A DNA stretch of 45,850 nucleotides from Deltaproteobacteria bacterium (lineage in GTDB: Bacteria; Myxococcota_A; JAADFL01): contig JAADFL010000185.1 of the NCBI GenBank assembly GCA_013152945.1, positions 1 through 45,850 of the forward strand. Reading direction: 5' to 3'. The notes beneath the pieces are model-generated. The model worked only from the letters and a program-made list of their open reading frames with translations, was not told the DNA's origin and made no database searches. Of the stretch, positions 18,647-38,129 are shown in pieces (within the stretch, counting starts at the first letter, position 1; every line of letters begins with the position of its first letter). Made by a program: the position numbers and the translations under genes.

Positions 18647-18652
18647 GCGGAA

Positions 18653-21287: not shown

Positions 21288-21300
21288 AAAGGTGAGGAAC

Positions 21301-22584
21301 ATGAAAACAGACGAATCGACGAGGTTGTTCGATGAAGCCAAGAAGCTAATGCCCGGGGGCGTGAATTCTCCTGTCAGGGCATTCAGGGCGGTACATGGAA
21401 TACCCAGGGTCATTGTCAGGGGCTCGGGTTCACACGTATGGGACGCTGACGGCAATAAGTACATAGACCTTGTGTCTTCATGGGGCCCCTTGGTTGCAGG
21501 CCATGCCCATCCAAGGGTCGTACAGGCAATCTACGAGACTGCAAAAAGGGGAACGACCTTTGGAGCGCCCTGCCCTGCCGAGCTGGAATTGGCCCGGCAG
21601 GTGGTGCAAAGAATAGGCGTTGCGGAAAAGGTCAGGTTTGTCAACTCCGGCACCGAGGCGGTCATGACTGCGGTAAGGCTGGCCAGGGGCGCAACCGGCA
21701 GAGACAAGATAATCATATTCTCGGGTTGCTATCATGGGCATTCCGACGCCTTGCTCGCAGCCGGCGGATCCGGCATGGCCACCCTGGGCATTCCTTCGAC
21801 CCCGGGTGTCACATCCAGTGCCGTAAAGGACACCATAGTGCTTCCCCTGGACGACAAGGCAGCGGTAAGCCGGGCTTTTGACGAGAACAAGGGGCAAATA
21901 GCAGCAGTCATAATAGAACCTGCACCGGCTAATGCAGGCCTGTTGATCCAGGACCGCGAGTTTTTGAATTTCTTGCGTGAGACCTGCTCCAGGGAACAAA
22001 GCCTGCTCGTTTTCGATGAAGTGATAACCGGTTTCAGGGTGGCAAAAGGAGGCATGACCGAGCTGCTCGGTATCGAACCCGACCTAATGACCCTTGGAAA
22101 GATTATCGGCGGCGGCCTGCCCGTGGGCGCAATCGCAGGCCCTGCATCGTTGATGGAAGAGCTGGCTCCCAACGGCCCGGTGTACCAGGCGGGAACACTT
22201 TCAGGAAACCCGTTGGCAATGGCGGCCGGTGCGGCGACCCTGGACCTGCTGGATGACGAGGCCTACGACAAGCTCGAAGGCCTCGGCCTGAAATTGGAAG
22301 AGGAAATGAAAAATGCGCTTGCACGGACCGGCGTAAGGGGAAGCGTTGCAAGATTAGGCTCCGTGCTTTGGCTGTGCCTGGGCAGGCACACCCCTCCAAG
22401 GGTTCATGAACCTGATGAAGAAGGTGCCCGCCTGTATGCCGGGGTTCATGCAGGATTGCTCGAAAGAGGAGTGTACATGGCGCCGTCTGCATATGAGGTC
22501 GCATTCGTGAGCCTGGCCCATACCGAAGAAGACATTGCCCGAATAGGTTCCGCGCTTTTCGAAGCCCTTAAAGAGGCTGCATGA
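21301..22584 (+). CDS. hemL: Glutamate-1-semialdehyde 2,1-aminomutase
   Basis: A 427-residue PLP enzyme that makes 5-aminolevulinate. The N-terminus KKLMPGGVNSPVRAF is diagnostic, FVNSGTEAVMTAVRLARG follows, and the PLP lysine is Lys267 in TLGKIIGGGLPVGA. It starts 13 bases after hemB with a GGTGAGGA ribosome site. With hemA it forms the C5 entry to tetrapyrroles, so no 5-aminolevulinate synthase is needed. Confidence 0.96.
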   Translation: MKTDESTRLFDEAKKLMPGGVNSPVRAFRAVHGIPRVIVRGSGSHVWDADGNKYIDLVSSWGPLVAGHAHPRVVQAIYETAKRGTTFGAPCPAELELARQVVQRIGVAEKVRFVNSGTEAVMTAVRLARGATGRDKIIIFSGCYHGHSDALLAAGGSGMATLGIPSTPGVTSSAVKDTIVLPLDDKAAVSRAFDENKGQIAAVIIEPAPANAGLLIQDREFLNFLRETCSREQSLLVFDEVITGFRVAKGGMTELLGIEPDLMTLGKIIGGGLPVGAIAGPASLMEELAPNGPVYQAGTLSGNPLAMAAGAATLDLLDDEAYDKLEGLGLKLEEEMKNALARTGVRGSVARLGSVLWLCLGRHTPPRVHEPDEEGARLYAGVHAGLLERGVYMAPSAYEVAFVSLAHTEEDIARIGSALFEALKEAA

Positions 22585-22620
22585 AGATGCTGTAAAAATT
22601 CTGCTTAAAGAGGTTTGACA

Positions 22621-23664
22621 ATGAAAACGAAGCCGGTTCTTGAGCCATTGCTCGTAAGGGCTCTGCAATGCGAGCCTGTACAGAGGGTTCCTGTTTGGCT
22701 GATGAGACAGGCCGGCAGGTATCTTCCGGAATACAGGAAATTAAGACAGGAACATTCTTTCGAAGAATTGATCAAGTCGCCGGAACTCGCAACAAGGGTC
22801 ACCCTGCAGCCTGTGGAGCGATTCGACCTGGATGGGGCCATAATATTCTTTGATATACTGTACCTGTTCGAGGCCCTGGGCGTCAACGTGACCTTCGACG
22901 ACTCCGGGCCCAAAGTGCAATCTCCGTTTACGTCCGGCAAGCTCGACACCTCGGCAACCAGGATGTCCTTTGAACCCGGCATGTTTACGCACCTTGCAGA
23001 AAGCCTGGAGATGGCAAGAAAAAAACTTGCCCGGGAAAAGGCATTGATAGGCTTTGTGGGAGGTCCGTTCACGTTGTTTTCGTACCTCATGCCCTGTGTA
23101 GGCGAATCCGCCCTCTTGCAGGCAAGGAGACTGCTCCTCGAACAACCCGGGACAGGAAAGGAAATCCTGGCCACGATTGCAGAGGTTGCAGGGGCCCTGG
23201 CCGAATTGCAAGTCAAGGCGGGAGCACAGGTGATACAGGTTTTCGACACGTGGGCCGGCATATTGCCCGGCGACATGTTTCCTGAATTCGCCGCTCCTTT
23301 TATAGACATTGTTTTGGATCGCATCAACAACCTCGGGGTACCTTCGATTTATTTCGCAAGGAACACGACACACCTTCTCGGAGAGTTGAAGAAATTGAAA
23401 GCGAGTGCAATTTCACTGGACTGGACGGTTGATCTGAAAATTGCAAGCCAGGTGTTGGGGCCTGAAAAGGCATTGCAGGGAAACCTCGATCCTGCGGTAT
23501 TGTTGTGCGGGAATAATGTCATACAGGACCGGGTCTATAAGGCGCTCAGACAAGGCGGAGAGTCCAGGGGCTTTGTGTTCAACCTGGGACACGGAGTCCC
23601 TCCGCAGGCAGATCCGGGCAAAATCGAGCTACTGGTCGATACGGTCAGGAAGGGTCCGACGTGA
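22621..23664 (+). CDS. hemE: Uroporphyrinogen decarboxylase
   Basis: A 347-residue enzyme that converts uroporphyrinogen III to coproporphyrinogen III. The signature RQAGRYLPEYR is near the N-terminus and the second block GFVGGPFTLFSYL is in the middle. ATG 22621 follows AGAGG. The stop overlaps the GTG start of hemN. Confidence 0.96.
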   Translation: MKTKPVLEPLLVRALQCEPVQRVPVWLMRQAGRYLPEYRKLRQEHSFEELIKSPELATRVTLQPVERFDLDGAIIFFDILYLFEALGVNVTFDDSGPKVQSPFTSGKLDTSATRMSFEPGMFTHLAESLEMARKKLAREKALIGFVGGPFTLFSYLMPCVGESALLQARRLLLEQPGTGKEILATIAEVAGALAELQVKAGAQVIQVFDTWAGILPGDMFPEFAAPFIDIVLDRINNLGVPSIYFARNTTHLLGELKKLKASAISLDWTVDLKIASQVLGPEKALQGNLDPAVLLCGNNVIQDRVYKALRQGGESRGFVFNLGHGVPPQADPGKIELLVDTVRKGPT

Positions 23665-25028
23665 CAAAAAACGGCATAAAAGAACTTGCAGACAGGTTGC
23701 TGGAATTGGACAGGCCGGTGCCCAGGTACACCAGCTATCCGCCGGCCAATCACTTCGTTGCGATCGAGCCCCGCGTCTTTATCAATGCCCTGAAAAATGC
23801 GGGAAATCCCTTGTCAATCTATGTACACATACCGTTTTGCAAACGAAAATGCACATATTGCGGATGCTTTTCAATGGTGCCGCCCGGCCAAAACCCGGTC
23901 GGTCAATACATTCATGACCTCGCGTCCGACATGGAAAATATATCAAGGGAATTGCAGGGACACCACGAGGTGGCCCAAATCCAGTTCGGAGGCGGAACCC
24001 CTAACTTCCTCACAGCCGGCCAGTTGAGCAAGTGCATGAACCATTTAAAAGAGAATTTCCGCATCCTGGAAGATGCGGAAATAGGTGTTGAGCTGGATCC
24101 TACCTTCCTCGAGCAAAGCCAGGTGGACACGCTGAAGAAAACCGGCTTCAACAGGGTCAGCCTGGGAGTCCAGGACCTGGACCAGGAGGTGCAAAGACTT
24201 ATAGGCAGAGGACAATCCAGGGAAAAGACCGTCAATGCTTTCAACATGTGCCAAAATGCCGGTTTCGACAGCATTCACATTGACCTCGTATACGGTTTGC
24301 CCGGCCAATCAGTGGAGTCGCTGCAACTCACGCTGCAAGAGGTAATAGACATGGGCCCGGACAGGCTCTCCTTGTTCGGCTTTGCTTACCTTCCGGGCCT
24401 GCGTCCCAACCAGGCCAAGATACCGTGTGACAAGGTGCCTGGAAGCAGGACCAGGGCGGAGCTCTACCTGACGGCGACAGACCAGCTTACCAGGGCGGGA
24501 TACGTTCGCATCGGCATGGATCATTTTGCAAAACGAGATGATGAACTGGCCCAGGCCCTTGAGCAAGGCAGGTTGCACAGGAACTTCCAGGGCTATACAT
24601 CACGGCTTGCGCCCGACCTGCTCGGCTTCGGTGTTTCCGCTATCAGTGACATAGCGGGAGCGTACTTTCAGAACACCAAATCCCTCGAGGAATATTCATC
24701 CAGGACCGGCAGTGGGGTGCCTGCTGTTTTGCGGGGTTTCGTCCTTTCCGAGGAAGACAAGATCCGCAGGCAGGTTATAGAATCGATCATGTGTAACAAG
24801 AGGATTTCTTTCAAGGAAATCGAGAAATGTTGCCTTTCGTCCGATAGCTTCAATAAACATTTTGAAGAATCGCTCGAAAAGCTTTCATCCCTGGCCGGAC
24901 AGGGCTTAATCGAACTAAATAGAGATAGCATCGAGGTCAAGCTCTGGGCCTGGCCCCTTGTCAGGTTGGTCGCAGCCGCATTCGACGAATACCTCGAACC
25001 AGGAGCAGTCTATTCCAGGGTGATATGA
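23661..25028 (+). CDS. hemN: Oxygen-independent coproporphyrinogen III dehydrogenase (radical SAM)
   Basis: A 455-residue radical SAM enzyme, the length of true HemN. RYTSYPPANHF near the N-terminus and VHIPFCKRKCTYCGC carry the 4Fe-4S CxxxCxxC plus the following Cys. FGGGTPNFL provides the SAM-binding GGxTP. It starts at GTG 23661 overlapping the hemE stop. It makes protoporphyrinogen IX without oxygen, and the next-but-one gene supplies the final oxidation. Confidence 0.94.
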   Translation: MTKNGIKELADRLLELDRPVPRYTSYPPANHFVAIEPRVFINALKNAGNPLSIYVHIPFCKRKCTYCGCFSMVPPGQNPVGQYIHDLASDMENISRELQGHHEVAQIQFGGGTPNFLTAGQLSKCMNHLKENFRILEDAEIGVELDPTFLEQSQVDTLKKTGFNRVSLGVQDLDQEVQRLIGRGQSREKTVNAFNMCQNAGFDSIHIDLVYGLPGQSVESLQLTLQEVIDMGPDRLSLFGFAYLPGLRPNQAKIPCDKVPGSRTRAELYLTATDQLTRAGYVRIGMDHFAKRDDELAQALEQGRLHRNFQGYTSRLAPDLLGFGVSAISDIAGAYFQNTKSLEEYSSRTGSGVPAVLRGFVLSEEDKIRRQVIESIMCNKRISFKEIEKCCLSSDSFNKHFEESLEKLSSLAGQGLIELNRDSIEVKLWAWPLVRLVAAAFDEYLEPGAVYSRVI

Positions 25029-26036
25029 ATGGCAGGAGACAAAACCAGGATAGCCCTGCTCGGACTGGTCCTTGGGAGCCCCGGTAATCCGGGCCAGGTT
25101 AAAGATTTTCTCCTGGAACTTTTCAATGATCCTTACATGCTGGATTTACCGTTTCGAAAGTTCCTGGCCCGCATCATCGCCGATAGGAGAGCGCCAAAGG
25201 CTGTTGCCAAGTACGAGATGATCGGAGGCAAATCTCCACTCATGGAGATCAGCCGAAGCCAGGTATCTGCAATCGCCGACCTGCTCAATGACGATGAAAA
25301 AGAGGTTCAACCATTCCTGGCTGCAAGGTACCTCGAACCTTCATTGCCCGGTGCGCTTTCTTCAATAGCATCCGGTGGATTCGATATCGTGGTCGCATTG
25401 CCCCTGTACCCTCACCAGAGCAGGGTTACAACAGGTTCCAGCCTGGCCCGGTTGCACAGCATTGCGCCGGACTTCAAATTATCCGGGAGAATAATCGAGA
25501 TCGGATCATACTGCGACCACCCGGGATATATCTCGAGCCTTGCATCAACGGTAGAACAAGCCTTGAAAAAGCTTGGAACAACACAAAAGGACACGCACCT
25601 GCTCTTTGCAGCCCACAGCATTCCGCTCAAGCTTGCCGGGAAAGGAGATCCTTATCCGGGCCAGGTGAAACGTACCGTTCAGGCAATATTGGAAAAACTG
25701 AAATGGACGGGCACCCATAGCCTTGCTTTTCAAAGCAGGGCCGGCCCTGTCTCCTGGCTCGGGCCCGGTACAAGCGAAGAGGTCAAGAGATTGGCCGCCT
25801 CGGGTACAAGGAACATTTTGGTCGTTCCCACCAGCTTTGTGTCTGATCACCTCGAAACCCTTTTCGACCTGGATATCGAGCTTGCCCGTATCGCCGCCAA
25901 GGAAGGAATCAAGGGTTATGCAAGGGCACCGGCACTTAATGACAGGCCGGAATTCATTTCTGCTCTTGCCCTGATGGTGAATGACGAAATCTCCCGCACA
26001 ACCAATAAGAATACGTCCATGTTCGGGCCTTCTTGA
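25029..26036 (+). CDS. hemH: Ferrochelatase
   Basis: A 335-residue enzyme that inserts Fe2+ into the porphyrin. The catalytic His196 is in FAAHSIPLKL. The block FQSRAGPVSWLGPGTSE and the C-terminal SDHLETLFDLDIE carry the other conserved residues. The N-terminal LGLVLGSPGNP departs slightly from the usual NLGSP form. ATG directly follows the hemN stop. Confidence 0.94.
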   Translation: MAGDKTRIALLGLVLGSPGNPGQVKDFLLELFNDPYMLDLPFRKFLARIIADRRAPKAVAKYEMIGGKSPLMEISRSQVSAIADLLNDDEKEVQPFLAARYLEPSLPGALSSIASGGFDIVVALPLYPHQSRVTTGSSLARLHSIAPDFKLSGRIIEIGSYCDHPGYISSLASTVEQALKKLGTTQKDTHLLFAAHSIPLKLAGKGDPYPGQVKRTVQAILEKLKWTGTHSLAFQSRAGPVSWLGPGTSEEVKRLAASGTRNILVVPTSFVSDHLETLFDLDIELARIAAKEGIKGYARAPALNDRPEFISALALMVNDEISRTTNKNTSMFGPS

Positions 26037-26117
26037 ACAGGGCGTAAAATTAAATTACTTATGCAAAGAGGAGCGCAAGAGAGATAAAAAAAGAAAACAA
26101 GAGAAAGAAGAAATAGC

Positions 26118-27554
26118 ATGAAAAGGATAGCTGTACTGGGAGGCGGCATTTCAGGGCTTGCAACCGCCTTTCGTATCGATCAGGGCCTAAAAAAGGCAGG
26201 CACAAGCTATGACCTTGTCATACTGGAGCAGGCATGCCGGCCCTGCGGCAAGATACAAAGTGAGAAGATTGGTGATTTCATAGTCGAATCCGGGCCGAAC
26301 GGCTTCCTTGACAATGAACCTGCAACAGACAGGCTTGTTAAAGACCTTGGAATAGAAAACCGCCTCATTCCATCCAGGCCGGAAGGACAAAAAAGATACC
26401 TCTTGAGCAAAGGGAAACTTACAGCCTTGCCGGGCTCACCTTTATCTTTTCTGTTATCGCCCCTACTGACTCTCAAGGGAAAGGCCAGGGTCGTAATGGA
26501 GAGGTTCATTTCAAAAGGTATGGGCCTTGACGAGAGCGTCCTTGATTTCGTTACCCGCAGACTCGGCAGGGAAGCTGCGGAAACTCTCATCGACGCAATG
26601 GTTTCCGGTATTTATGCAGGCGACATTTCCAGGCTTTCGATCAAGGCCGCCTTTCCGCGCATATTCGAGCTGGAACAGGAGTACGGCGGCCTTTTCAAGG
26701 CCCTGCCCAAGGTGGCCGGGGAAAGAAAGAAAATGGGCCAAGAGCCCGGACCGACCGGACAACCGAGAGGCAGGCTGACCTCTTTTGACCAGGGAATGGA
26801 CGTGATAACAAAGGCTCTGGCTCAGGTCCTGTCACACAAGATACGGACCAGCACGGTCGTATCTGCGATCAGGCGTGAAAACCACGGGTACTCCATTCTG
26901 GTTCATGGAATGCACAAGCAGGGCCGCGCCAGACATTGTAAGGCCCCATTGACAAAAACAGGGATAATTCATGCGGACGCCGTGGTGCTCGCCCTTCCGG
27001 CTTACAGCGCATCCCGCGTACTGGCGAAGGCATGCAAGCAAGCTTCAGCCGCACTTGCAAATATTCCGTATGCAGGCATCACAGTTATCGCACTTGCATT
27101 CGACAGGTCAAATGTCGGGCACCGGCTGGACGGTTTCGGTTTCCTTGCCCCCAGAAACCAGGGGGTAAGGATACTGGGCGCAAGGTTTGCATCGAGCACA
27201 TTCGAAAACAGGGCTCCAAAAGAAAGTGTTCTGATCGAGGCCATGGCAGGCGGAATCACTGATCCGGGTGCACTGGACCTCGGAGCCCGGGACCTGGTCG
27301 ACATGGCCTTGGATGAACTCTCGGAGCCGCTCGGTATTGACTCCAGGCCCAAGCTGTCCGCCGTCTTCAGACACGTGACGGCAATACCCCAGTATAATCT
27401 CGGTCACATCGATCTTGTCTCGAGCATTGAAGAAGCTGAATCAAAGACGCCCGGCCTCTGGATAACGGGTAATGCCCTTCGCGGTGTTGCAATGAACAAG
27501 TGTATCGCCGAATCCGAAAGGGTGGCCGGGGCACTGATGAATTATCTCGGTTGA
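26118..27554 (+). CDS. hemY: Protoporphyrinogen oxidase (FAD, HemY type)
   Basis: A 478-residue flavoprotein. The N-terminal FAD-binding motif is VLGGGISGLATAF, followed by FIVESGPNGFLD and ending with LWITGNALRGVAMNKCIAE, the C-terminal FAD-contact block of this family. It oxidises protoporphyrinogen IX (or coproporphyrinogen III in some lineages) and normally uses oxygen. A purine-rich 81-base spacer separates it from hemH. Because HemN is present, the classical protoporphyrin route is more likely than the coproporphyrin-dependent one. Confidence 0.93.
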   Translation: MKRIAVLGGGISGLATAFRIDQGLKKAGTSYDLVILEQACRPCGKIQSEKIGDFIVESGPNGFLDNEPATDRLVKDLGIENRLIPSRPEGQKRYLLSKGKLTALPGSPLSFLLSPLLTLKGKARVVMERFISKGMGLDESVLDFVTRRLGREAAETLIDAMVSGIYAGDISRLSIKAAFPRIFELEQEYGGLFKALPKVAGERKKMGQEPGPTGQPRGRLTSFDQGMDVITKALAQVLSHKIRTSTVVSAIRRENHGYSILVHGMHKQGRARHCKAPLTKTGIIHADAVVLALPAYSASRVLAKACKQASAALANIPYAGITVIALAFDRSNVGHRLDGFGFLAPRNQGVRILGARFASSTFENRAPKESVLIEAMAGGITDPGALDLGARDLVDMALDELSEPLGIDSRPKLSAVFRHVTAIPQYNLGHIDLVSSIEEAESKTPGLWITGNALRGVAMNKCIAESERVAGALMNYLG

Positions 27555-27561
27555 AAAAGGC

Positions 27562-29949
27562 TCAATCCCAACCAGGTTCCTCGATCTTTGAAACAGCAGC
27601 CAGGTCGGCTTGATCTGTTGCCATGAAGACCCTGTAAAGAGCGGACATGGCGTGATAAGTATAGTCTATCCTTTGCTTGTTGTGTGTCAGGCAGTACCTG
27701 ACACCTCCCCATGCCAATTCAGGGTTTGGGAAATAATAATCGTTCCTGCCCTTTTCCACTTGTTGCTGGATAATGAACCTGGCTGCGGTCAATGCAGCGG
27801 TCCTGAATTTTTCCTGTACTTCTCTCGGCGCGCCTGCTTCCTTGGCAAGCATGAAACTTGCAGCGGTTCCCTCGGTATAAACGAATGTGTGCATTGCAGG
27901 CACCTCGAAGGCCACCTTGAAATAACCACCGAGGTAGTCCGGATAAGGCGCTTTTCCAGGTGTGAACTGATAGCTGTCTATTATCCAATTGGATACCAGG
28001 TTCGAATTCTCCAAGTACCTGGGGTCAGGATCGTGTCTGTACATTTCTTCCATTGCCATTGCAATCCAAGGCTGGAACTGGACCAGTTCTTTTCTAAGGC
28101 GTTCCTCGTACAAGCCGTCGGGCCGTCTCTTGTCCATCCGTTCCTTGAACCATTTCATGTTGGTCTCCATGGACTTTCTGAATATTTTCTTCCATTTTTC
28201 ATCCTTGTATTTACCGTACAGCCTTGCCACTGCATATAGAATCTCTCCCGGATATATTGAATTGCGCCAATTGTAATAGCTGGTCCCCGGACCGGCATAG
28301 TAATGATAGAAGCCGCCCTCGTCCCTTTCCATGTACTCAACGAAAGCAGCCAGTCCATCGAGCAACTTTTGCTTTTCCGGCGTAAGCTCGACGCCTGATT
28401 TTTCCGCCTGTGTAAGCCCGAGTATGGCTACTGCGGCAGCCCCCATCTTTGCAACCGGCGGACCGCCGTCCGATGGCTTGTACATAAGCAGCGCCACCTT
28501 GGGTCCGGGCAAGGGCTTGCCATGCCACGTCTTTATTTGCTCCAGAGGCCTTCCCTCCCGGTCCAACGGCGGCCCTCCCCACTTCAGGTGTGCCTCCATG
28601 AAGCGCCAGCCCGCCTCGATGGTCTTCAGGTTCGCCGGGTTCGGGGCAACCTGTTGTGCCAATAGAAGGCCGAATATTCCTACGCAATGGCGCACGAAGT
28701 TGAATTCCTTTGGCTTGCTGTACTTGTCCACGGACGGGAAATACCTGTAAACAAACCTGCCTGACGGATCCTTCTGGTTGACCCGTATCCAACGCGCAAG
28801 ACCGGCAATCGCCTTCTTTATCCTTTCCCTGGTCATGTCCTTCATGGAAGGAGGAGAGCCAAGTCCCCTGTACAGGTCCTGCACGGGACCACCCGGCCCG
28901 TTTTCGCGAAAATGTATGATGCGGAATCTTTTCAATTCAAGGTCTTGATCCAGGTAGGCCTTTTCGGGCAGGCCGGCCCATTTCATCAAGGCCTTTAGAA
29001 AATCCGCGGTCGAGTCCTTGTTCCTGGTAACCGAGTACCATGGAGGCAGGGTAAAGTTTCTTGCCTTGTTCCTGACTACAGCGCCGTACAGTCCGGGTTC
29101 GAATGTCCGCCACAGGAGCTCATCGTCCCTCGGCCCCTTGAGTACACCTTTGTCGAAGATGACACCTATTTCCACTGTCAAAGACTTGTCCAGGGCCACA
29201 GCCAGTCTACCGTACTTATTTTGGAATCCCTTTTTCTCATAGCCCTTTCTTGCAGAACGCGCAGCCTTGATTACCGCCCCTGAAAGGGTCTTGGCCCTTG
29301 CATAGTAAAATCCAAGATGCCTTCCTTTCGGTCTCAAGCACAACGTGACTTCCCAATCACCCTTCTTCAAGATCACCTTTCGATCCTTTGAAAAAGATCC
29401 GATTGCCTTTCCCTTCATGGTATTCCTGGCTATCTCGAGGAGACGGGCCTTGACCTCCCTTGTAAGCCCTGATGGGGGATCGAACCGCTCGTACAAGATC
29501 AGGTCCTTTGTTATCAATCTCGCCGAATACCGGGCCAGGCTCCTAAGCAGTGCCAACCTGGTCAATACGTTGTCGTCGGGAATCGGAGCACGGACAGCCG
29601 TATGAGGGTCCACCAATATTTTCTTGATGCCGGCCTTGTCGAGAACCGCAGACAAGGCCTTGGCCCTTCTTTCTCCGAGGGCCTTTTCAACTCCCGGCAA
29701 TTTGCTTGCCTTTACAGGAACCGTTCCTCTAGCCGCGAGCGATTCAGCCTTCGGTCCAATGGCGAGGACCTTGCCGAGGTTGTAGAACGTGGCATATTCA
29801 TGTTCCCGGGCAGGTTCTTTCTTCGGCAACCTTGTTTCCTTGCACGAGGAAAGAAAAAAGGATGCCATCAAGATTGCAAGGCCGGTCCAAGAACCCAAAT
29901 ATCGGCCGACGGGAAAAAAGCATGATTCGTAACCGGCTTTCTTTACCAT
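27562..29949 (-). CDS. Large lipoprotein with AMMECR1-like domain and (alpha/alpha)6-type catalytic-like domain
   Basis: A 795-residue lipoprotein from ATG 29949, which follows GGAG by 5 bases; a GTG at 29982 is less likely. The signal ends ASFFLSSC. Residues ~150-370 match the AMMECR1 domain outline. LLEIARNTMKG, VTLCL, a VEIGVIF strand, FEPGLYGAVV, then FLKALMKWAGLPE and a DLELKRF ending follow the usual order, but the hallmark LRGCIG motif is not conserved. Residues ~390-780 are helical hairpins with aromatic and acidic residues (GFYHYYAGPG, YPGEILYAVARL, AYPDYLGG-like), as in six-hairpin glycosidases, lyases or epimerases. Function is unknown; polysaccharide processing at the outer membrane is a guess. 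It lies 37 bases behind another lipoprotein gene. Confidence 0.7.
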   Translation of the reverse strand: MVKKAGYESCFFPVGRYLGSWTGLAILMASFFLSSCKETRLPKKEPAREHEYATFYNLGKVLAIGPKAESLAARGTVPVKASKLPGVEKALGERRAKALSAVLDKAGIKKILVDPHTAVRAPIPDDNVLTRLALLRSLARYSARLITKDLILYERFDPPSGLTREVKARLLEIARNTMKGKAIGSFSKDRKVILKKGDWEVTLCLRPKGRHLGFYYARAKTLSGAVIKAARSARKGYEKKGFQNKYGRLAVALDKSLTVEIGVIFDKGVLKGPRDDELLWRTFEPGLYGAVVRNKARNFTLPPWYSVTRNKDSTADFLKALMKWAGLPEKAYLDQDLELKRFRIIHFRENGPGGPVQDLYRGLGSPPSMKDMTRERIKKAIAGLARWIRVNQKDPSGRFVYRYFPSVDKYSKPKEFNFVRHCVGIFGLLLAQQVAPNPANLKTIEAGWRFMEAHLKWGGPPLDREGRPLEQIKTWHGKPLPGPKVALLMYKPSDGGPPVAKMGAAAVAILGLTQAEKSGVELTPEKQKLLDGLAAFVEYMERDEGGFYHYYAGPGTSYYNWRNSIYPGEILYAVARLYGKYKDEKWKKIFRKSMETNMKWFKERMDKRRPDGLYEERLRKELVQFQPWIAMAMEEMYRHDPDPRYLENSNLVSNWIIDSYQFTPGKAPYPDYLGGYFKVAFEVPAMHTFVYTEGTAASFMLAKEAGAPREVQEKFRTAALTAARFIIQQQVEKGRNDYYFPNPELAWGGVRYCLTHNKQRIDYTYHAMSALYRVFMATDQADLAAVSKIEEPGWD

Positions 29950-29986
29950 GACTTCTCCAAACCGATTTTTAGAAAGTATCACCTTT

Positions 29987-30496
29987 TTATGGACTTACCA
30001 GACAAGACCAGAGCCCGTTACAATCGGGGGCAGCCAAAACACACTGGGCGCGCTTGGGGTCGAGGTCCCATAACTTGTCGCACCCCGGGCTGCCGGCACC
30101 GGCCAGGCATGCCTCCAAGGTATTGCCGAAAGGAGATCCCGGTATTTGCAGAAAACCGCAATCATCCAGAAGATAGCATGCCTTTTCGCAGATCTTTGGT
30201 TGTTCCTCTGAATCTCCAACTTCTCGATTCTCATGATCACCTTCCATCTCGAATGCTTCAGGCTCGAGCGAGTCCTTGTCTGCATCTGCATGTTCCATGT
30301 CTGCATGTTCCATGTCCGGGACTGAATAATCCTTCTCACCCTGTTCAAGGGCATCGGCCCTTTCCTCCAAAATCGAGTCTTCTTTATCCGCTCCGGGCAA
30401 AGAAGCCAGTTCAATCACCTCCAGCTTGCAACCTGGTTGTACTGCCGATGATACGAAAAAAACCATTACAAATAATCTTTCAACCAGAGGTTTCAT
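29987..30496 (-). CDS. Small acidic, Cys-containing lipoprotein
   Basis: A 169-residue predicted lipoprotein, signal ending VQPGC. Residues ~35-100 are strongly acidic and low in complexity, with the direct repeat MEHADMEHADADKD. The C-terminal ~70 residues hold eight cysteines (CEKACYLLDDCGF, ACLAGAGSPGC, QCVLAAPDCNGLWSC), probably a disulfide-bonded domain. I do not recognise the family. It is divergent from the radical SAM operon and upstream of the AMMECR1-like lipoprotein gene. Confidence 0.7.
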   Translation of the reverse strand: MKPLVERLFVMVFFVSSAVQPGCKLEVIELASLPGADKEDSILEERADALEQGEKDYSVPDMEHADMEHADADKDSLEPEAFEMEGDHENREVGDSEEQPKICEKACYLLDDCGFLQIPGSPFGNTLEACLAGAGSPGCDKLWDLDPKRAQCVLAAPDCNGLWSCLVSP

Positions 30497-30619: not shown

Positions 30620-30681
30620 ACGTGATTCCGGACAGGGCTCTTTATCCTGTACGGATATTTTCCTGTTGCAAGGAGATTTCG

Positions 30682-31446
30682 GTGTCCGATTACATCAGTC
30701 TCAACATCGAGGTTACAGACAACTGCAATCTCAATTGCAGCATGTGCGACCAGGCTATTTCAGGAGGGCTGCCCCACGGCAATGAAAAGGGATACATCTC
30801 GAAAGATACATGGAACAAGATACTCGATTCCCTCGAGGGATTCGACAAGGAGATACACATTTCCGCTTTCTGGCTGGGCGAACCCCTGATGCATCCGGAG
30901 TTCGAGTCACTAATCAGGACGGCCTTTGAAAGAAACCATAAAAACCATCTGTTCAGGGATCTGAAGATACACACGAACGGCGTACTGCTGTCAGAAAAGA
31001 GGACCGATGCCATACTGGACTGTGCTTCCATGCAAGGGCTTTCGCCCGACACCTTCACGTTTCTGCACTGCTCCATCGAGGCGGTCAAACCCGAAACCTA
31101 CAAGTTGATAAAAGGCGGGGATTTCCTGGAAATAGTGAAGGCCAACCTCTTGCACTTCCTGGATATGCGGGCCAAGAGAAAACTCTCGTTTCCAAAGCTG
31201 ACCGTAGCCTTTATAGTAACCGAAGAAAACCGGGAAGAAGCAAGGGATTTCCTGGAAACATGGTCCCGTGTCTTCAAAAAGCGGGGCCTCGAATTCCAGG
31301 TGACCGGAGACTGGCCGCCCAAGCTCATGGACACCATATATTTCAGGCGACTAAACTCGTCCGACCAGGAAGCAGCGGACATGCTTCACCAAGAGGTTCT
31401 GTCCAGGCTCAACATTACGTCGGGACGAATCGAGGAGTCTTTCTGA
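30682..31446 (+). CDS. Radical SAM protein 1 (core only, SPASM encoded separately)
   Basis: A 254-residue protein from GTG 30682, which follows AAGGAG by 6 bases. The 4Fe-4S motif is Cys15, Cys19, Cys22 (CNLNCSMC). The SAM-contact motif is FWLGEPLMHPEF, a LGEP variant of the usual GGEP. KIHTNGVLL and HCSIEAVKPETYKLIKG are the later beta-strand motifs. No C-terminal auxiliary-cluster Cys domain is present; that domain is the next gene. It is first in a ten-gene overlapping operon. It presumably generates a 5'-deoxyadenosyl radical; the substrate is unknown. Confidence 0.88.
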   Translation: MSDYISLNIEVTDNCNLNCSMCDQAISGGLPHGNEKGYISKDTWNKILDSLEGFDKEIHISAFWLGEPLMHPEFESLIRTAFERNHKNHLFRDLKIHTNGVLLSEKRTDAILDCASMQGLSPDTFTFLHCSIEAVKPETYKLIKGGDFLEIVKANLLHFLDMRAKRKLSFPKLTVAFIVTEENREEARDFLETWSRVFKKRGLEFQVTGDWPPKLMDTIYFRRLNSSDQEAADMLHQEVLSRLNITSGRIEESF

Positions 31447-31784
31447 TGGCCGGCCGTGAACCCTGCGCCGGGCTCTGGGAAACCCCGGTAGTCAACCACA
31501 ACGGTGATGTCACCACCTGTTGCCTCGATGTCAAGATGAAGAATAAGCTGGGAAACCTGGGACAAGAAAGCCTGGTTTCGTTGTGGAGAGGCCCGAAGAT
31601 CCACTCGTGGAGAATCGCCCAAATTTTGGGCCGCTTCGATATGAGTGGTCCGGCCTGTCCGGACTGCAACTACAAGAGCGCCGGAACGTATCCACAGCGG
31701 AAGATCGTGGAATATCTCGAAAAAACAGGTGAGGCAAAGGTTTTGGCGGATTACCTTTCGAGGCAGGGGGAAAAGACGGATTGA
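31446..31784 (+). CDS. Stand-alone SPASM-domain protein 1
   Basis: A 112-residue protein starting at ATG 31446, sharing one base with the preceding stop (TGATG). It has a GAGGAG ribosome site (31432-31437) inside the end of the radical SAM gene, 8 bases away. Residues 7-28 (PCAGLWETPVV, then CC at 25-26) and Cys71/Cys74 (CPDC) are the SPASM auxiliary-cluster pattern normally found at the C-terminus of radical SAM/SPASM enzymes. It should bind an Fe-S cluster and act as a subunit with radical SAM protein 1. The strong internal ribosome site argues against a sequencing error. Confidence 0.8.
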   Translation: MAGREPCAGLWETPVVNHNGDVTTCCLDVKMKNKLGNLGQESLVSLWRGPKIHSWRIAQILGRFDMSGPACPDCNYKSAGTYPQRKIVEYLEKTGEAKVLADYLSRQGEKTD

Positions 31785-31814
31785 AAAAGCTTCCATGAAA
31801 GAGAAAGATCTGAA

Positions 31815-32858
31815 ATGAAAGGTCCGGATCAAATATGCATTGTCACGAACGTGACATGCAATCTCTCTTGCTTGAATTGTGACGCCTGGAAGTCCGAACC
31901 CAGAAAGCCGATGTCCAAAAGGCAAATCCGCAATCTGCTCGCTCGTTTGAGAAGCTGGCTCGGCCCGATCCGCCCTGACGGGTCCAGGCCGTTCGAGGTA
32001 TACTTTGCCGGAGGCGAGCCCTTCATGCGAAAGGACATGGAGGAAATACTGTCGTGCTGCCGTGACCTGGGCATTTGGTGCCAAGTCACCACCAACGGCA
32101 CGCTCCTTACGGAAAAGAGGGCCGAAAAGGTGATCCGCGCCGAACCCGGGGCCATAGGAATCTCCATCGATGCCGCAAGGCCCGAAATACACGACTACTT
32201 GAGGGGCAAAGAAGGTGCGTTCGAAAATGCATGGGCCGCGGTCCGGAGACTCGGCAGGCTGAAACTTGAAAGAAACGCCTCCACTGCAGTGCAGGTGCAT
32301 GCCTTGCTCTCTGGCTTTCATCCGCAAGAGGTGCTTGATTTGGTGGACATGACCGCCCGGACAAGAGGCGTTTTGAACCTTATAATACAGGCCCTGGTTG
32401 CACCTTGTTTTTCCGAGGTGAAAACAGGGTGGTGGAAGAACAATCCTTTCTGGCCCCGGGACATGGATCTCATGAACCGCGTGATCGACGAGCTGATACA
32501 AAAGAAGAGAAAATACGAATCAGAGGGAAGGCCGGTCCTGGGAAACTCCGAGGCACAGCTCGAACTCATACGCCTGTATTTTACCGACCCCGCCAGGCGG
32601 GTGCCCGGAAGATGCACTGTAGGCGGGCATTCTTTCAATGTCGATGTAAACGGCGATGTCAGGATCTGTCACTTCATGGAACCCGTGGGCAACATATTGA
32701 AGCAGGACCCGGAAAAAATCTGGCTTTCAAAGGCTGCGGCAAAGGTCAGGAAAAAAATAGAGTCATGCGTTTCCAACTGCAACCTCATGAACTGCAACTG
32801 GTTCGAGGACGGCCTCGAAGGGGTTGACGCAGTGCTCGCGGGATTGAAGAGATCATGA
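31815..32858 (+). CDS. Radical SAM/SPASM-type protein 2
   Basis: A 347-residue protein with CNLSCLNC at residues 15-22, AGGEPFMRKDME as SAM motif and TTNGTLL. The C-terminal cysteine region has GRCTVGGHSFNVDVNGDVRIC, then CVSNCNLMNCNW. The latter resembles the same region of protein 4 (CKRSCNLLNCNY), and both have a WWK...WPRD insert, so proteins 2 and 4 are probably products of duplication. The start lies 30 bases after the SPASM gene with a weak ribosome site; the stop overlaps the next start (ATGA). Confidence 0.88.
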   Translation: MKGPDQICIVTNVTCNLSCLNCDAWKSEPRKPMSKRQIRNLLARLRSWLGPIRPDGSRPFEVYFAGGEPFMRKDMEEILSCCRDLGIWCQVTTNGTLLTEKRAEKVIRAEPGAIGISIDAARPEIHDYLRGKEGAFENAWAAVRRLGRLKLERNASTAVQVHALLSGFHPQEVLDLVDMTARTRGVLNLIIQALVAPCFSEVKTGWWKNNPFWPRDMDLMNRVIDELIQKKRKYESEGRPVLGNSEAQLELIRLYFTDPARRVPGRCTVGGHSFNVDVNGDVRICHFMEPVGNILKQDPEKIWLSKAAAKVRKKIESCVSNCNLMNCNWFEDGLEGVDAVLAGLKRS

Positions 32859-33805
32859 GCAGGCCCTTTCCAGTACCCCGTGTCTTGATAGTCCACATCA
32901 CCGACAGGTGTAACCTCTCATGCAGGTTCTGCGATCTACCCAAGGGGCCAAGGGATTTTTCGTTCAAAAACCTTTCCTCCTTGTTGAAAGAGGGCAGCGA
33001 CCTCGGAATACCCAACCTGGTGCTCACAGGAGGAGAGCCGTTGCTCCACCCGGAGATTGAATCCATCCTGTCAATGTCATCATCCCTTGGCTTTGGTCTG
33101 AACATAACCACCAACGGCACGCCGCTTGTAGACCTTGCAGGCATGCTCGCCGGCTTCAAGGTTGCCTCCGTATCGGTGTCAATCGACGGTAAAGAAGAGA
33201 CCCACGACGACCTGAGAGGAGTCAAGGGAGCTTACAAACGCACCATGGCGGGAATAGAAGCCTTGAAAAGCAAGGCGCCGAAAACAAGACTGTCGATATA
33301 CATGGTGGTCACCGAAGTAAATGCGGCCGAGTTGAATGATGTGTACGATCTATCCGGGCGAATCGGGGCGGATTTCAATTTCTGGCCGGTGAACAACCAG
33401 CCCGGACTTTACATGAGATCCGACACGGCCAGACAGGCATACATATCATTCGTCCAAAGGCTGGCGCAGGAAAACCGGGAATTCGAAAAGAGGAAGGATT
33501 ACTATCTCACCGGCCTCGAGTACCACCGGGGAAAAAGGCTGCGTGTAAGGTGCATGGGCCTTTCCGACCAGGCCGGAATATCCGTAACCGGGGAGCTTCT
33601 GCCCTGCTGCGTGTGGGGAGAGAAAAGCCTGATCATAGGCAATGCAGTCGAACAAGGACTCCCGGCCCTGCTGTCTTGCTCAAAGGCCGAGGCCTTGAGA
33701 AAAAAGATATACAGCCGGGGTTGTGTCGGCCTGTGTTATAATCATTCCCTGTACGAGTTTTCGCAAAAGACAGGTGAACCGTTCCTGCTGGGGGTCGAGT
33801 ATTGA
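32855..33805 (+). CDS. Radical SAM/SPASM-type protein 3
   Basis: A 316-residue protein with CNLSCRFC at residues 19-26, LTGGEPLLHPEIE, ITTNGTPL and VSIDGKEETHDDLRG. It ends with a short auxiliary-type Cys region (RCMGLSDQ, LLPCCVWGE, GCVGLCYNHS). This arrangement is like peptide- or protein-modifying radical SAM enzymes with SPASM or twitch domains. It overlaps both neighbours by 4 bases. Confidence 0.87.
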   Translation: MSRPFPVPRVLIVHITDRCNLSCRFCDLPKGPRDFSFKNLSSLLKEGSDLGIPNLVLTGGEPLLHPEIESILSMSSSLGFGLNITTNGTPLVDLAGMLAGFKVASVSVSIDGKEETHDDLRGVKGAYKRTMAGIEALKSKAPKTRLSIYMVVTEVNAAELNDVYDLSGRIGADFNFWPVNNQPGLYMRSDTARQAYISFVQRLAQENREFEKRKDYYLTGLEYHRGKRLRVRCMGLSDQAGISVTGELLPCCVWGEKSLIIGNAVEQGLPALLSCSKAEALRKKIYSRGCVGLCYNHSLYEFSQKTGEPFLLGVEY

Positions 33806-34806
33806 TCCACGGATTAATCGAAAGAACGGCGGATCTGGTTTTGCAGAAACCCCGCACGGTTCATATCAGCCCTACTTACAGGTGTACCTTGAAGTGCATG
33901 CAGTGTGATTTATGGAGGCTTCCAAACGACGGTGAGCTTTCATCCTCCCGGTGGATCGGGGTAATCAAGGCATTCAAGGAATACCTGGGACCGTTTGCAC
34001 TCAAGATTTCCGGAGGCGAACCCTTCCTGGTACCGGGTATGATGGAGTTGGTGGAGCGTGCAAAAGCAATGGATCTGTACGTGGGCATTTCCACCAACGG
34101 CACATTGTTGAACGATGAAACGGCAAGGAGGATTGTACGCGCCGGGGTCGACGAGGTCCATGTATCGATTGATTCGATGAACCCGAAAATCCATGACCAC
34201 ATGCGGGGAGCCCCCTTGGCCTTCAAGAGAGCCATGCAAGCAATCGAAAGGCTTGCAAGTCTGAATGGTGAGACAAAGATATGCCTGGCCACGGTAATTA
34301 CATCCTTGAACCTCGAAGGACTCATGGACCTCGTGATCTGGGCTGCGAACAACCCCGGCCTGTACACCATAACTTTGCAGGCATTGTTCCAAAACTTCGG
34401 CGCACCTTACGACCCGGCCTGGTGGAAGAGAAGCGAACTGTGGCCGAGGGACAGGGACCTCGTAACTTCAGTTTTCGATCGCCTCATGGATTACAAGTCA
34501 TCACACTGGGAACTGGCCAACCCGATGAACCAGTTGGCTGCGATGAAAGATTACTTCCTTCACCCTGACCGGACCCCGACAGCCGTATGCCATGCAGGCA
34601 AGACGGACATCGCCGTCGATCCCTTTGGCGGGCTGCGGCTTTGTTTCAGCCTGCCTCCGATCGGCAACCTGTTGAGAAGCAGCCCGGGCCGCCTGTTGCA
34701 TTCCAAAGAGGCTGCAAAGCGAAGGAAGCAAATCGCCTCGTGCAAACGAAGCTGCAACTTGTTGAACTGCAATTACGAGGACGTTCGAAGGGACTCGTCG
34801 CCATGA
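33802..34806 (+). CDS. Radical SAM/SPASM-type protein 4
   Basis: A 334-residue protein from TTG 33802, overlapping the previous stop (TTGA). CTLKCMQC is at residues 28-35, after a ~25-residue N-terminal extension. SGGEPFLVPGMME and STNGTLLNDE follow. The C-terminus has VCHAGKTDIAVDPFGGLRLC and CKRSCNLLNCNY, paralleling protein 2. The shared WWKRSELWPRDRDL segment further ties the two. Substrate is unknown. Confidence 0.86.
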   Translation: MIHGLIERTADLVLQKPRTVHISPTYRCTLKCMQCDLWRLPNDGELSSSRWIGVIKAFKEYLGPFALKISGGEPFLVPGMMELVERAKAMDLYVGISTNGTLLNDETARRIVRAGVDEVHVSIDSMNPKIHDHMRGAPLAFKRAMQAIERLASLNGETKICLATVITSLNLEGLMDLVIWAANNPGLYTITLQALFQNFGAPYDPAWWKRSELWPRDRDLVTSVFDRLMDYKSSHWELANPMNQLAAMKDYFLHPDRTPTAVCHAGKTDIAVDPFGGLRLCFSLPPIGNLLRSSPGRLLHSKEAAKRRKQIASCKRSCNLLNCNYEDVRRDSSP

Positions 34807-35918
34807 ACCGGGCCCTTGAAAAAGATCTTGTCGACCTTGGATTCCATCTTTCGAGGAGAACAGGGATTCCGCTGGTCAGGCCGGACTGGGTGTCAATCAA
34901 CGTCACATTGCGTTGTAACCTGAAATGTGAAATGTGCGTCACTTGCTACGATGCTCCGGACGAGCTTGGTACAGGTGAATTGGTCCGTATCATCGACCAG
35001 GTGGCGGACTGGGGAGTACCCATCGTCAACTTGCTCGGCGGCGAACCAACAATCAGAAAAGATATTGCGCCTGTCCTGAAAAGGGCGCAGCAGAGGGGCT
35101 TGCTTACAACCCTCACCACGAATGGAACTCTCTGGGATACTGAAATGCTGGAACTGGTAGCCGGCCTGAACATGGTTCACGTCAACTTTTCCATAGACGG
35201 GCTGGAACAGACCCATGACTCCATACGTGGAAAGGGGACATTTAAAAAAGTAACATCTACTCTTTCAGCCTTGAGACAGGCTGAAGACAAATATACAAAA
35301 AATCCCGGATTTTACAGAAAGGCCATCAATGTCAATTCACTCGTAACCAGCGCCAACCTGGAGGAGCTGGTCGATCTTGCAAGACTTGCGAAAGCACTTG
35401 GGGCCGACAAAATACAGTTCTTGAATCTTTTCGATCATGGCCCGGCGGCAAGAAAGAGCAGGCTCTGGATAAAAGAAAAGGACTTGCCCGGGCTGGACAG
35501 GGCAATAGACAGGCTCATCGAGTATTTCAAACAAGACAAGCAGGGGTTCGGACCGGTCAACAGTCTTGAAGATCTGGCCATGATCAAACAATACTATCGC
35601 GGCACGATGAAACCGGAAGATGCTCCGTGTTACAACGGGTACAAAGAGCTGTACATCAATGTAAACGGTGATGGCCTCATGTGTGACGGAAAATTGAACT
35701 TCCTCAACGGCTCCTTTGGCAATGCCAGACGGCAGCCCATCAAGGAAATGTGGACCAGCTCGGCGGCCCGCACCATGAGAAAGAGAGTAGCTGCCTGTGA
35801 AAAACCGTGCCTCCAGGATTGCTACTTAAGGCGTGAATCCGATGATCCGGTAGGTATAATCACCTCGATGGCCGGACATGTTATGCAGGGCCTGGGTATT
35901 TTGGGAGGTTCGAAGTGA
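34803..35918 (+). CDS. Radical SAM/SPASM-type protein 5
   Basis: A 371-residue protein from ATG 34803 (ATGA overlap; a longer upstream frame is an artefact of the overlap). CNLKCEMCVTC begins at residue 38, giving the three cluster cysteines plus an extra Cys at 48. LGGEPTIRKDIA and TTNGTLWDTEM follow. The C-terminus has CYNGYKELYINVNGDGLMC and CEKPCLQDC, a SPASM-like set, then a hydrophobic tail GIITSMAGHVMQGLGILGG that could touch a membrane or partner. Confidence 0.87.
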   Translation: MNRALEKDLVDLGFHLSRRTGIPLVRPDWVSINVTLRCNLKCEMCVTCYDAPDELGTGELVRIIDQVADWGVPIVNLLGGEPTIRKDIAPVLKRAQQRGLLTTLTTNGTLWDTEMLELVAGLNMVHVNFSIDGLEQTHDSIRGKGTFKKVTSTLSALRQAEDKYTKNPGFYRKAINVNSLVTSANLEELVDLARLAKALGADKIQFLNLFDHGPAARKSRLWIKEKDLPGLDRAIDRLIEYFKQDKQGFGPVNSLEDLAMIKQYYRGTMKPEDAPCYNGYKELYINVNGDGLMCDGKLNFLNGSFGNARRQPIKEMWTSSAARTMRKRVAACEKPCLQDCYLRRESDDPVGIITSMAGHVMQGLGILGGSK

Positions 35919-36700
35919 ACCCGATTAAACCGGTACTGCAAATCGAGCCCACGGATTTTTGTAACCTTGCATGTGCCATGTGCTCCCCCCAAAAGAGCGG
36001 CAAGCCGCATGGAAACGTGAAACCAGGCTTCATGGCATTCGATTTGTACAAGAAAATAATACATGGGATAGCAAAGAGAGGGCCTGACCTGGACCACATG
36101 ATACTGCAATGGCTGGGAGAACCGACCCTGCATCCGCAATGGCTCGACATGTTGGAAACAGCAATAAGGGAGGCAGGTCACAGGTTCGGTTATTTCAGGG
36201 TGGATACGAATGCGGTTCTCCTCGACCATGATGCATCCATTCGGCTCTGCCGTATTGCAAGAGACAACCCGGGCAGGCCCATAGTACTCATCTTTTCCCT
36301 GGATGCCGCAACCAGGGATACATACATTAAATTAAAGGGCAAGGACCGCTTCGAACAGGTTGTCTCGAATATCGAGGACTTTTTAAGGCTTCGAAAAGAA
36401 AAGGTAAATCCCGCCGAGTCACCACTGAATGTCCAGTTCCAACTTGTGCTTCAACAAGGCAACGCACACGAGGTAAGAGCATTCATCGACAAATGGGATG
36501 GTTTCCTGTTCGACCTGGGCTCCAGTGACACGTATGATACTATAATGATAAAACGGCTCGCCGTGGGAACCGGCGGCCAAGGCCAAAGACAGGCTGATTT
36601 GCTTTACGAGAAAACAATCAGCCGCCTCGGCCTGAGACCCGGGAAGCTTGGTGCCTGCCGGCTCGAACTTTGGCTCGACAGGCCATGGGAGGAGGAATGA
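35915..36700 (+). CDS. Radical SAM protein 6 (core only, SPASM encoded separately)
   Basis: A 261-residue protein from GTG 35915. CNLACAMC is at residues 16-23. QWLGEPTLHPQW shows the same LGEP variant as proteins 1 and 7, and FSLDAATRDTYIKLKGKDRF is close to the matching part of protein 7. It ends WLDRPWEEE just where the SPASM domain would begin. The Glu codons at its end form the ribosome site of the next gene. It is the second case in this operon of a radical SAM core separated from its SPASM domain. Confidence 0.87.
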   Translation: MNPIKPVLQIEPTDFCNLACAMCSPQKSGKPHGNVKPGFMAFDLYKKIIHGIAKRGPDLDHMILQWLGEPTLHPQWLDMLETAIREAGHRFGYFRVDTNAVLLDHDASIRLCRIARDNPGRPIVLIFSLDAATRDTYIKLKGKDRFEQVVSNIEDFLRLRKEKVNPAESPLNVQFQLVLQQGNAHEVRAFIDKWDGFLFDLGSSDTYDTIMIKRLAVGTGGQGQRQADLLYEKTISRLGLRPGKLGACRLELWLDRPWEEE

Positions 36701-37041
36701 AAAGAGGAAGCACCAATCACAGGAGTCCTTGTCCCGGCCTGTGGCTTACCCCTGTAATCAGGCATGACGGTGAGCTTCACGTGTGCTGCGCTGATGTGGA
36801 AGGTGAAATAAAAGTAGGCAATCTCAAGGACGCGGATTTTGACGAGCTTTGGTTTGGAAGCAGGATGAATGAATACAGGGCATGGCACTTAAGGGGTGAA
36901 TTCCACAAGATGCCCAAATGTGAAACCTGCGGCGGCATCAATTTCTACAAGCTCGACAAGGAGCAGATAAAAAACTGGTGCATGGAAAACAATGAAATGG
37001 ATGCCTTGGAGGCATTCCAGGAAAGAACGGGCGGCGATTGA
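36697..37041 (+). CDS. Stand-alone SPASM-domain protein 2
   Basis: A 114-residue protein from ATG 36697, overlapping the previous stop (ATGA) and directly preceded by GGAGGA. Cys12 (PCPGLWLTPVIRHDGE), Cys30-Cys31 (VCCADV) and Cys75/Cys78 (CETC) give the same five-Cys pattern as SPASM protein 1, and the two are clearly paralogous. It should supply the auxiliary Fe-S cluster for radical SAM protein 6. Confidence 0.8.
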   Translation: MKRGSTNHRSPCPGLWLTPVIRHDGELHVCCADVEGEIKVGNLKDADFDELWFGSRMNEYRAWHLRGEFHKMPKCETCGGINFYKLDKEQIKNWCMENNEMDALEAFQERTGGD

Positions 37042-38129
37042 CCACGGCCTCCCATAAATTCGTTCCATGGTTCGACGGCTCATACTTGGTGCTGGAACTC
37101 ACCAACCGTTGTCCTGCAGCGTGTACACATTGCATACAAAAATACAGGAACACACACGAGCATTTCTCCATATCCAGCGACATGGATCCAAAGGTCATAG
37201 AAAAACTCGCCGAGTCCGCCTGGTCGGAGGGGTTGTATTTCGATACCTTGATTTTGTTCTGGCTTGGTGAACCTCTGATGCATCCTCGTTTCAATGATAT
37301 CTACACCAGGCTGCTTGATTACAATGCAAAAAAGCCATGGTTCAACAAGGTGGAAGTTCACACCAACGCCCTGCCCCTCGGCCCGGCGCAAAGAAGAGCG
37401 GCTGTCATCAACCAGGATGTCCCGGCAAAATGGCATATATCCCTGGATGCCGTAACAAGAGATACATACAGGGCGATCAAGGGTGTGGACAGGCTCGAAG
37501 AGGCCGAAGCCAACACGATCAAGTTACTCGAAACAAGGGGAAAGGAAAAATGGCCGGCAATCGTGTTTCAAATGGTGGTCCAGGATGAAAATGCCGGTGA
37601 GGCTTTGAAATTCGCCCACAGGTGGAAATCCATAGACGAGAAAAAGGGCAGGTCCTGCAGCACCAGGGGGTACACGGTTCCGCCGGATGGAAATGACTAC
37701 GTGTTCTTGAGACAACTCGACGCACTGGAACCGGAAGACCAGGCCGGGGCCGATGAACTGTACTTCAAGGTATGTGCTGAACAGGGAATACCCGGGCCTG
37801 AAAGGACCATTAAAAAAATACAGGGGAGCAGGGTGTGCTCCGGACCATGGAAGAGCCCGACCATCGGGGCTGATGGAAGAATGACCGTGTGCACGAGGGA
37901 CTCTTCATTCGAGCTGGAAGTAGGTAAATTCGAAAAGAGTTCAAACCTTGCAGCCGCATGGTGGTTTGGTGAAAAAATCGAAACCCTGCGCAAGGCCCAT
38001 CTCGACGGCAGGAAAGAACTTCCTTCCTTGTGCAGGGCTTGTCCCATTCCGAGATCATCCAACTACACGTCCATATCGGGAAGCGAGATTGCATGGTACA
38101 GGGCATGGAAAACAACTTTGGGGAAATAA
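37038..38129 (+). CDS. Radical SAM/SPASM protein 7 (fused form)
   Basis: A 363-residue protein from TTG 37038 (TTGA overlap). CPAACTHC is at residues 25-32, FWLGEPLMHPRF is the SAM motif, and SLDAVTRDTYRAIKG follows. In contrast to proteins 1 and 6, the SPASM-type part is in the same chain. SRVCSGPWKSPTIGADGRMTV and LCRACPIP align by eye with the stand-alone SPASM proteins, so this is the intact version of the same architecture. Confidence 0.88.
   Translation: MTTASHKFVPWFDGSYLVLELTNRCPAACTHCIQKYRNTHEHFSISSDMDPKVIEKLAESAWSEGLYFDTLILFWLGEPLMHPRFNDIYTRLLDYNAKKPWFNKVEVHTNALPLGPAQRRAAVINQDVPAKWHISLDAVTRDTYRAIKGVDRLEEAEANTIKLLETRGKEKWPAIVFQMVVQDENAGEALKFAHRWKSIDEKKGRSCSTRGYTVPPDGNDYVFLRQLDALEPEDQAGADELYFKVCAEQGIPGPERTIKKIQGSRVCSGPWKSPTIGADGRMTVCTRDSSFELEVGKFEKSSNLAAAWWFGEKIETLRKAHLDGRKELPSLCRACPIPRSSNYTSISGSEIAWYRAWKTTLGK

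Follow-up and report, generated by a model that had tools for sequence, protein, structure and literature searches.

Two overlapping genes in a 45,850-nt stretch of contig JAADFL010000185.1 from a Deltaproteobacteria bacterium (the whole stretch is referred to as the window) most likely encode the two subunits, rSAM1 and SPASM1, of a BtrN-like radical SAM enzyme in which the auxiliary cluster would be supplied in trans. We put the probability of this reading, in which the two proteins would bind each other, at roughly 80%. The first gene, rSAM1 (30682–31446, + strand), has its best start at the GTG at 30682, which is preceded by an AAGGAG ribosome site (30670–30675), and encodes a stand-alone radical SAM core of 254 residues that ends in -SF and lacks a C-terminal Fe-S domain. 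Its frame closes with GAG GAG TCT TTC TGA, the stop codon occupying 31444–31446. The second gene, SPASM1 (31446–31784, + strand), encodes a stand-alone auxiliary-cluster protein of 112 residues. Its ATG (31446–31448) shares the A of the rSAM1 stop in a TGATG stop-start overlap (31444–31448), and a GAGGAG ribosome site (31432–31437) lies within the end of rSAM1, 8 nt upstream of this ATG. In Pfam searches, rSAM1 matches Radical_SAM (PF04055) with 55.1 bits against a cut-off of 29.5, and SPASM1 matches SPASM (PF13186) with 43.6 bits against a cut-off of 21.5 over residues 7–75. The initial annotation had placed the end of the radical SAM core at 31446, at the SPASM border, and had begun a 112-residue protein at the overlapping ATG with its own GAGGAG; both statements hold, as Pfam splits the domains between the two ORFs and the start and ribosome site can be read directly in the DNA. 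Neither protein matched any NCBIfam model over cut-off, the best match of rSAM1 being W_rSAM_matur (TIGR04317) with 75.4 bits, below its cut-off of 380.

The rSAM1 chain modelled alone by AF2 (pLDDT 92.1) forms a full six-strand barrel, so the first gene appears to encode a whole domain rather than a truncated one. The CX3CX2C motif stands near the N-terminus in all 33 rSAM1 orthologues. Judged by motif and predicted fold, rSAM1 belongs to the radical SAM superfamily, and it is predicted to cleave SAM. SPASM1 carries the pattern C-x17-CC-x44-C-x2-C in 40 of 40 orthologues, and an invariant core, PCAGLW..TP....G..TTCCLD......GN, extends across Myxococcota; such strong conservation indicates more than a chance ORF. 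The complete barrel of rSAM1 could mean that the enzyme no longer needs an auxiliary cluster and that SPASM1 is a remnant, but a remnant would hardly keep all five cysteines in every one of 40 orthologues, and we give this explanation very little weight.

By its cysteine pattern, SPASM1 is, more exactly, a one-cluster twitch domain rather than a two-cluster SPASM domain. The seven-cysteine SPASM motif, CX9-15GX4C-gap-CX2CX5CX3C-gap-C (PMC6231123), is present in 0 of 40 SPASM1 sequences, which contain only its first half and the CX2C; all 40 have the truncated motif, CX9-15GX4C...CX2C, which provides the ligands of a single cluster. By definition, a twitch domain is a shortened SPASM domain that carries one auxiliary cluster (PMC9012708; PMC6231123). 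The SPASM label of the initial annotation therefore stands as a PF13186 match over cut-off and gives way to twitch-type on the missing seven-cysteine motif. Twitch domains are also described as C-terminal extensions of the radical SAM chain, and here the domain is a separate gene in all 33 loci. The best solved relative of SPASM1 is BtrN (2-deoxy-scyllo-inosamine dehydrogenase, 4m7s/4m7t), which its profile matches with an E-value of 1.9e-5, the cysteines aligning with BtrN C187, C232 and C235; the fourth cluster ligand of BtrN is Cys169. The rSAM1 profile likewise matches BtrN, which is among its best solved relatives, as well as CteB. BtrN has the same barrel, a one-cluster twitch domain and aligned cysteine ligands, yet it is one chain, whereas rSAM1 and SPASM1 are separate and often unlinked genes.

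To follow the split across genomes, we used 11 close relatives from a scan of named genomes (ten titled Myxococcota, Deltaproteobacteria or proteobacterial MAGs and one Klebsiella pneumoniae) and a survey of the window's phylum covering 377 genomes, of which 43 contain rSAM1, the orthologues being mostly from metagenome-assembled genomes. The Klebsiella pneumoniae title of one MAG (L047, CAMAWH010000033.1) looks wrong, since it carries a Myxococcota-type locus and a contig of equal length (56554) and content occurs in a genome of the window's phylum (G192). Fusion was examined at 33 Myxococcota loci. Not one rSAM1 orthologue is fused (0/33): the frame stops at, or a few residues from, the end of the profile and does not run on into a SPASM domain. 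Whether homologues share the split, or are instead always fused, was one point on which the initial annotation left its claim to turn, and the claim has come through.

The position of the partner gene varies widely. The pair stands side by side on one strand in eight genomes. SPASM1 follows in the -1 frame through a TGATG overlap in the window and in G008 and G259, and in the -1 frame after TAG and a 2-nt gap in G264. It lies in the +1 frame 13 nt away in G002, with a mini-ORF (MERS*) and its stop in between, in the +1 frame about 60 nt downstream in G125, and in the same frame behind an in-frame TGA in G187. An intermediate layout occurs in G206 and G090, where both genes lie on one strand, separated by 0.7 and 2 kb and by a member of family c14. 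The partner is on the opposite strand, at most 10 kb away, in 13 genomes; the two are 328 kb apart on the same contig in G178; and in 19 genomes SPASM1 is on another contig. A sequencing or assembly indel that broke one fused gene would give the look of the window itself, with ORFs in adjacent frames and an overlap. The absence of fused orthologues, partners in frames -1, 0 and +1 and above all the unlinked genes refute such an artefact, as the initial annotation had argued from the window, and its probability is practically nil. Programmed frameshifting at the overlap, yielding some fused product, could draw on the last codon of rSAM1, TTC preceded by T, where the Phe tRNA could slip back one base. 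It has scarcely more to recommend it, as other genomes show +1 or in-frame layouts, an extra stop, gaps of 13–60 nt or no adjacent gene at all, a set of layouts beyond the reach of either an indel or programmed slippage.

The end of the rSAM1 chain is itself conserved. The C-terminal residue is Phe at 33 of 33 loci (31438–31446 in the window, plus 32 orthologue loci), as -SF in 27 and -AF in 6, and three different stop codons follow it (TGA, TAG and TAA), which also speaks against a frameshift. The tails of a second split radical SAM protein, rSAM2 (described below), differ (EEE, GGRAS, TEAKA). The fixed -[SA]F, set against these variable tails, suggests that the free chain end of rSAM1 may have a function. 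One reading that builds on this would make SPASM1 a reversible partner that docks via the -[SA]F, accepts the electron of the substrate radical and leaves for re-oxidation, in effect a dedicated ferredoxin derived from a catalytic domain; we consider it unlikely.

Presence of the two genes is tightly coupled. Among the 377 genomes, 42 contain both, 1 contains rSAM1 only, 4 contain SPASM1 only and 330 contain neither (46/377 with SPASM1, whose hits score 148 bits or more, against 96 at most in the next class). Fisher's exact test gives P = 6e-50, a value that overstates the evidence because the genomes share ancestry. The single genome with rSAM1 in which SPASM1 was not found (G112) is 96% complete; the four with SPASM1 only are 72–86% complete. 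Where unlinked, SPASM1 belongs to a run of conserved order, SPASM1–ABC ATPase–ABC-2 permease–DegT aminotransferase–prepilin peptidase (Pfam identifies DegT; the other names were given by eye), and rSAM1 comes after another radical SAM gene. An arginyl/leucyl-transferase-like gene is often found upstream of the SPASM1 run (run loci L038, L147–L166 and L169–L175). That most genomes place SPASM1 in this transporter, DegT and prepilin peptidase run, away from rSAM1, and that rSAM1 goes undetected in four genomes with SPASM1, would fit an independent Fe-S electron carrier serving one or more other enzymes. However, SPASM1 accompanies rSAM1 in 42 of 43 genomes, the four exceptions are incomplete, rSAM1 is without exactly the domain that SPASM1 provides and that most relatives of rSAM1 carry themselves, and the eight side-by-side pairs tie the two together; an independent carrier is thus improbable. 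Taken together, the co-occurrence, the fact that the small domains are of one type, and the intact barrel devoid of an auxiliary domain point to a two-subunit enzyme.

The window contains a second case. Seven radical SAM proteins, two of them split, stand in one run on the + strand (30682–38129). After the rSAM1/SPASM1 pair come, by Pfam, a radical SAM protein with fused SPASM domain of type '..CNLMNCNW' (family c4, 31815–32858), another of type '..CYNHSLYEF' (32855–33805), a radical SAM protein of type '..CNLLNCNY' with a C-terminal Cys region and no SPASM match at E <= 0.001 (33802–34806), and a further fused one of type 'DWVSINVTLRCNLKCEMC' (34803–35918). They are followed by a second stand-alone radical SAM core, rSAM2 (35915–36700; PF04055, 41.6 bits), a second stand-alone auxiliary-cluster protein, SPASM2 (36697–37041; PF13186, 46.9 bits), which overlaps rSAM2 through ATGA, and a paralogue with radical SAM and SPASM domains in one chain, rSAM3 (37038–38129). 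Among the scanned radical SAM proteins of the window, only rSAM1, rSAM2 and the protein at 33802 lack a SPASM match of their own, and the second pair (35915–37041) is split at the same domain border as the first. The initial annotation, sound on the first pair, had missed both the second pair and the fused paralogue next to it. In other Myxococcota, the same radical SAM types are scattered over several loci; that they stand in one run here argues that the window's radical SAM proteins act together. Just upstream of the run lie a haem biosynthesis-like gene run (HemA, C, D, B, L, E, N, H and G by eye; 17333–27554) and a gene for an 806-residue putative lipoprotein (27562–29982, - strand), whose AMMECR1 match is sub-threshold (22.1 bits, cut-off 25).

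In a tree built from 69 radical SAM cores by a quick method, with the window's proteins on long branches, the rSAM1 sequences all fall into one clade (SH-aLRT 98) and the rSAM3 sequences, which are fused, all into another (SH-aLRT 100). The eight split rSAM2 form one subclade (SH-aLRT 88) that lies within the fused rSAM2; families f15, f18, f22, f24 and f51 have fused orthologues, and splitting of rSAM2 is confined to the window's part of the tree. With rSAM1 a clade of its own and split rSAM2 nested within fused forms, there were two separate fissions, and two changes of state suffice on this tree. The fission in rSAM1 was early and single; that in rSAM2 was later and independent.

The fit of the two proteins was modelled on the G187 pair, its in-frame TGA read through with table 4 to give a single chain; all other rows of the AF2 alignment were separate rSAM1 or SPASM1 sequences. 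The joined model (pLDDT 86.9, pTM 0.88) has a disordered linker. Over both domains it superposes on BtrN (4m7t) with Z 19.6 and an rmsd of 2.9 Å for 232 of 246 residues, and on anSME with Z 20.9 and 4.3 Å. rSAM1 and SPASM1 are accordingly predicted to fit together in the canonical way, an arrangement that is to be expected, and is weak proof, because AF2 knows the superfamily and the model joins the chains. In the joined-chain overlay, the small protein is predicted to lie at the normal SPASM position. The two-subunit enzyme proposed by the initial annotation is supported, its physical association being a prediction of the model.

In such an enzyme, rSAM1 would provide the (beta/alpha)6 barrel together with the cluster that cleaves SAM, and SPASM1, a one-cluster twitch domain, would dock on this barrel where BtrN, MoaA and anSME have the domain attached covalently, bringing in trans an auxiliary [4Fe-4S] cluster. 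The TGATG overlap in the window would couple translation of the two; in most relatives, they would be made from separate transcription units. By analogy with BtrN, whose cluster is held by four cysteines, the auxiliary cluster would most likely take the second electron during oxidation of a substrate radical.

Several known systems come close. To BtrN-type dehydrogenases, which carry out the two-electron oxidation of an aminocyclitol, rSAM1/SPASM1 show similarity in sequence and fold only. The fused rSAM2 and rSAM3 proteins of the same genomes belong to one sequence family with rSAM1 (about 30% identical) and have the same domain order when fused, but they keep the auxiliary domain in their own chain, unlike rSAM1/SPASM1. 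With scores far under the cut-off, SPASM1 matches positions ~5–84 and rSAM1 positions 112–293 of the 398-position model NF033640 (N_Twi_rSAM), whose twitch part is N-terminal in one chain, whereas SPASM1 is a separate gene. The fused architectures with C-terminal and with N-terminal (NF033640) twitch domains were already known. In the GeoRSP system, a SPASM protein (TIGR04304) belongs with a radical SAM/SPASM protein, a likeness judged here from the family names. We considered and rejected it as the same thing: the model has 293 positions and does not describe a bare domain of ~110 residues, and no match over its cut-off (300 bits) was found in the genome, and none at the window. The lipoyl synthase LipS1/LipS2 likewise shares a radical SAM reaction between two proteins, yet each is a complete radical SAM protein with two clusters, and no domain is supplied in trans (PMC9585515). 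We found no description in the searchable open-licence literature of a split radical SAM/SPASM or twitch enzyme with the domain on a separate or unlinked gene.

As to the substrate, a carbohydrate or amino sugar and an exported Cys-rich protein are guesses. Oxidation of a sugar-like substrate, suggested by the likeness to BtrN and by neighbouring DegT and epimerase genes, is a tentative possibility. The other candidate comes from a family of small Cys-rich lipoproteins, without Pfam match, that adjoins rSAM2, mostly divergently (L196:5497–5844, - strand; L036:3730–4062, + strand; L192:6137–6511, - strand; and others). Members occur in every one of the 18 genomes with the set and in 1 of the 14 without it, the query having included the window's own member. 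In the one exception (G013), the lipoprotein lies beside a Ser/Thr kinase with no rSAM1-type match or rSAM2 nearby. Divergent from rSAM1 in the window, a gene at 29987–30496 (- strand) encodes a Cys-rich putative lipoprotein that by eye resembles this family; a family profile built without the window's member does not find it. The Cys-rich lipoprotein may serve as a lead to the substrate, against which both the G013 exception and this profile miss speak.

Radical SAM genes with SPASM or twitch extensions number about 165,000, and direct evidence on the role of their auxiliary clusters has long been elusive (PMC9012708). The auxiliary domain is genetically separable, even to unlinked loci. A naturally separate cluster domain would permit assays with and without it, titration, and EPR of one cluster at a time with ligands unmutated; by removing and re-adding the second Fe-S part, chemists could learn its role.
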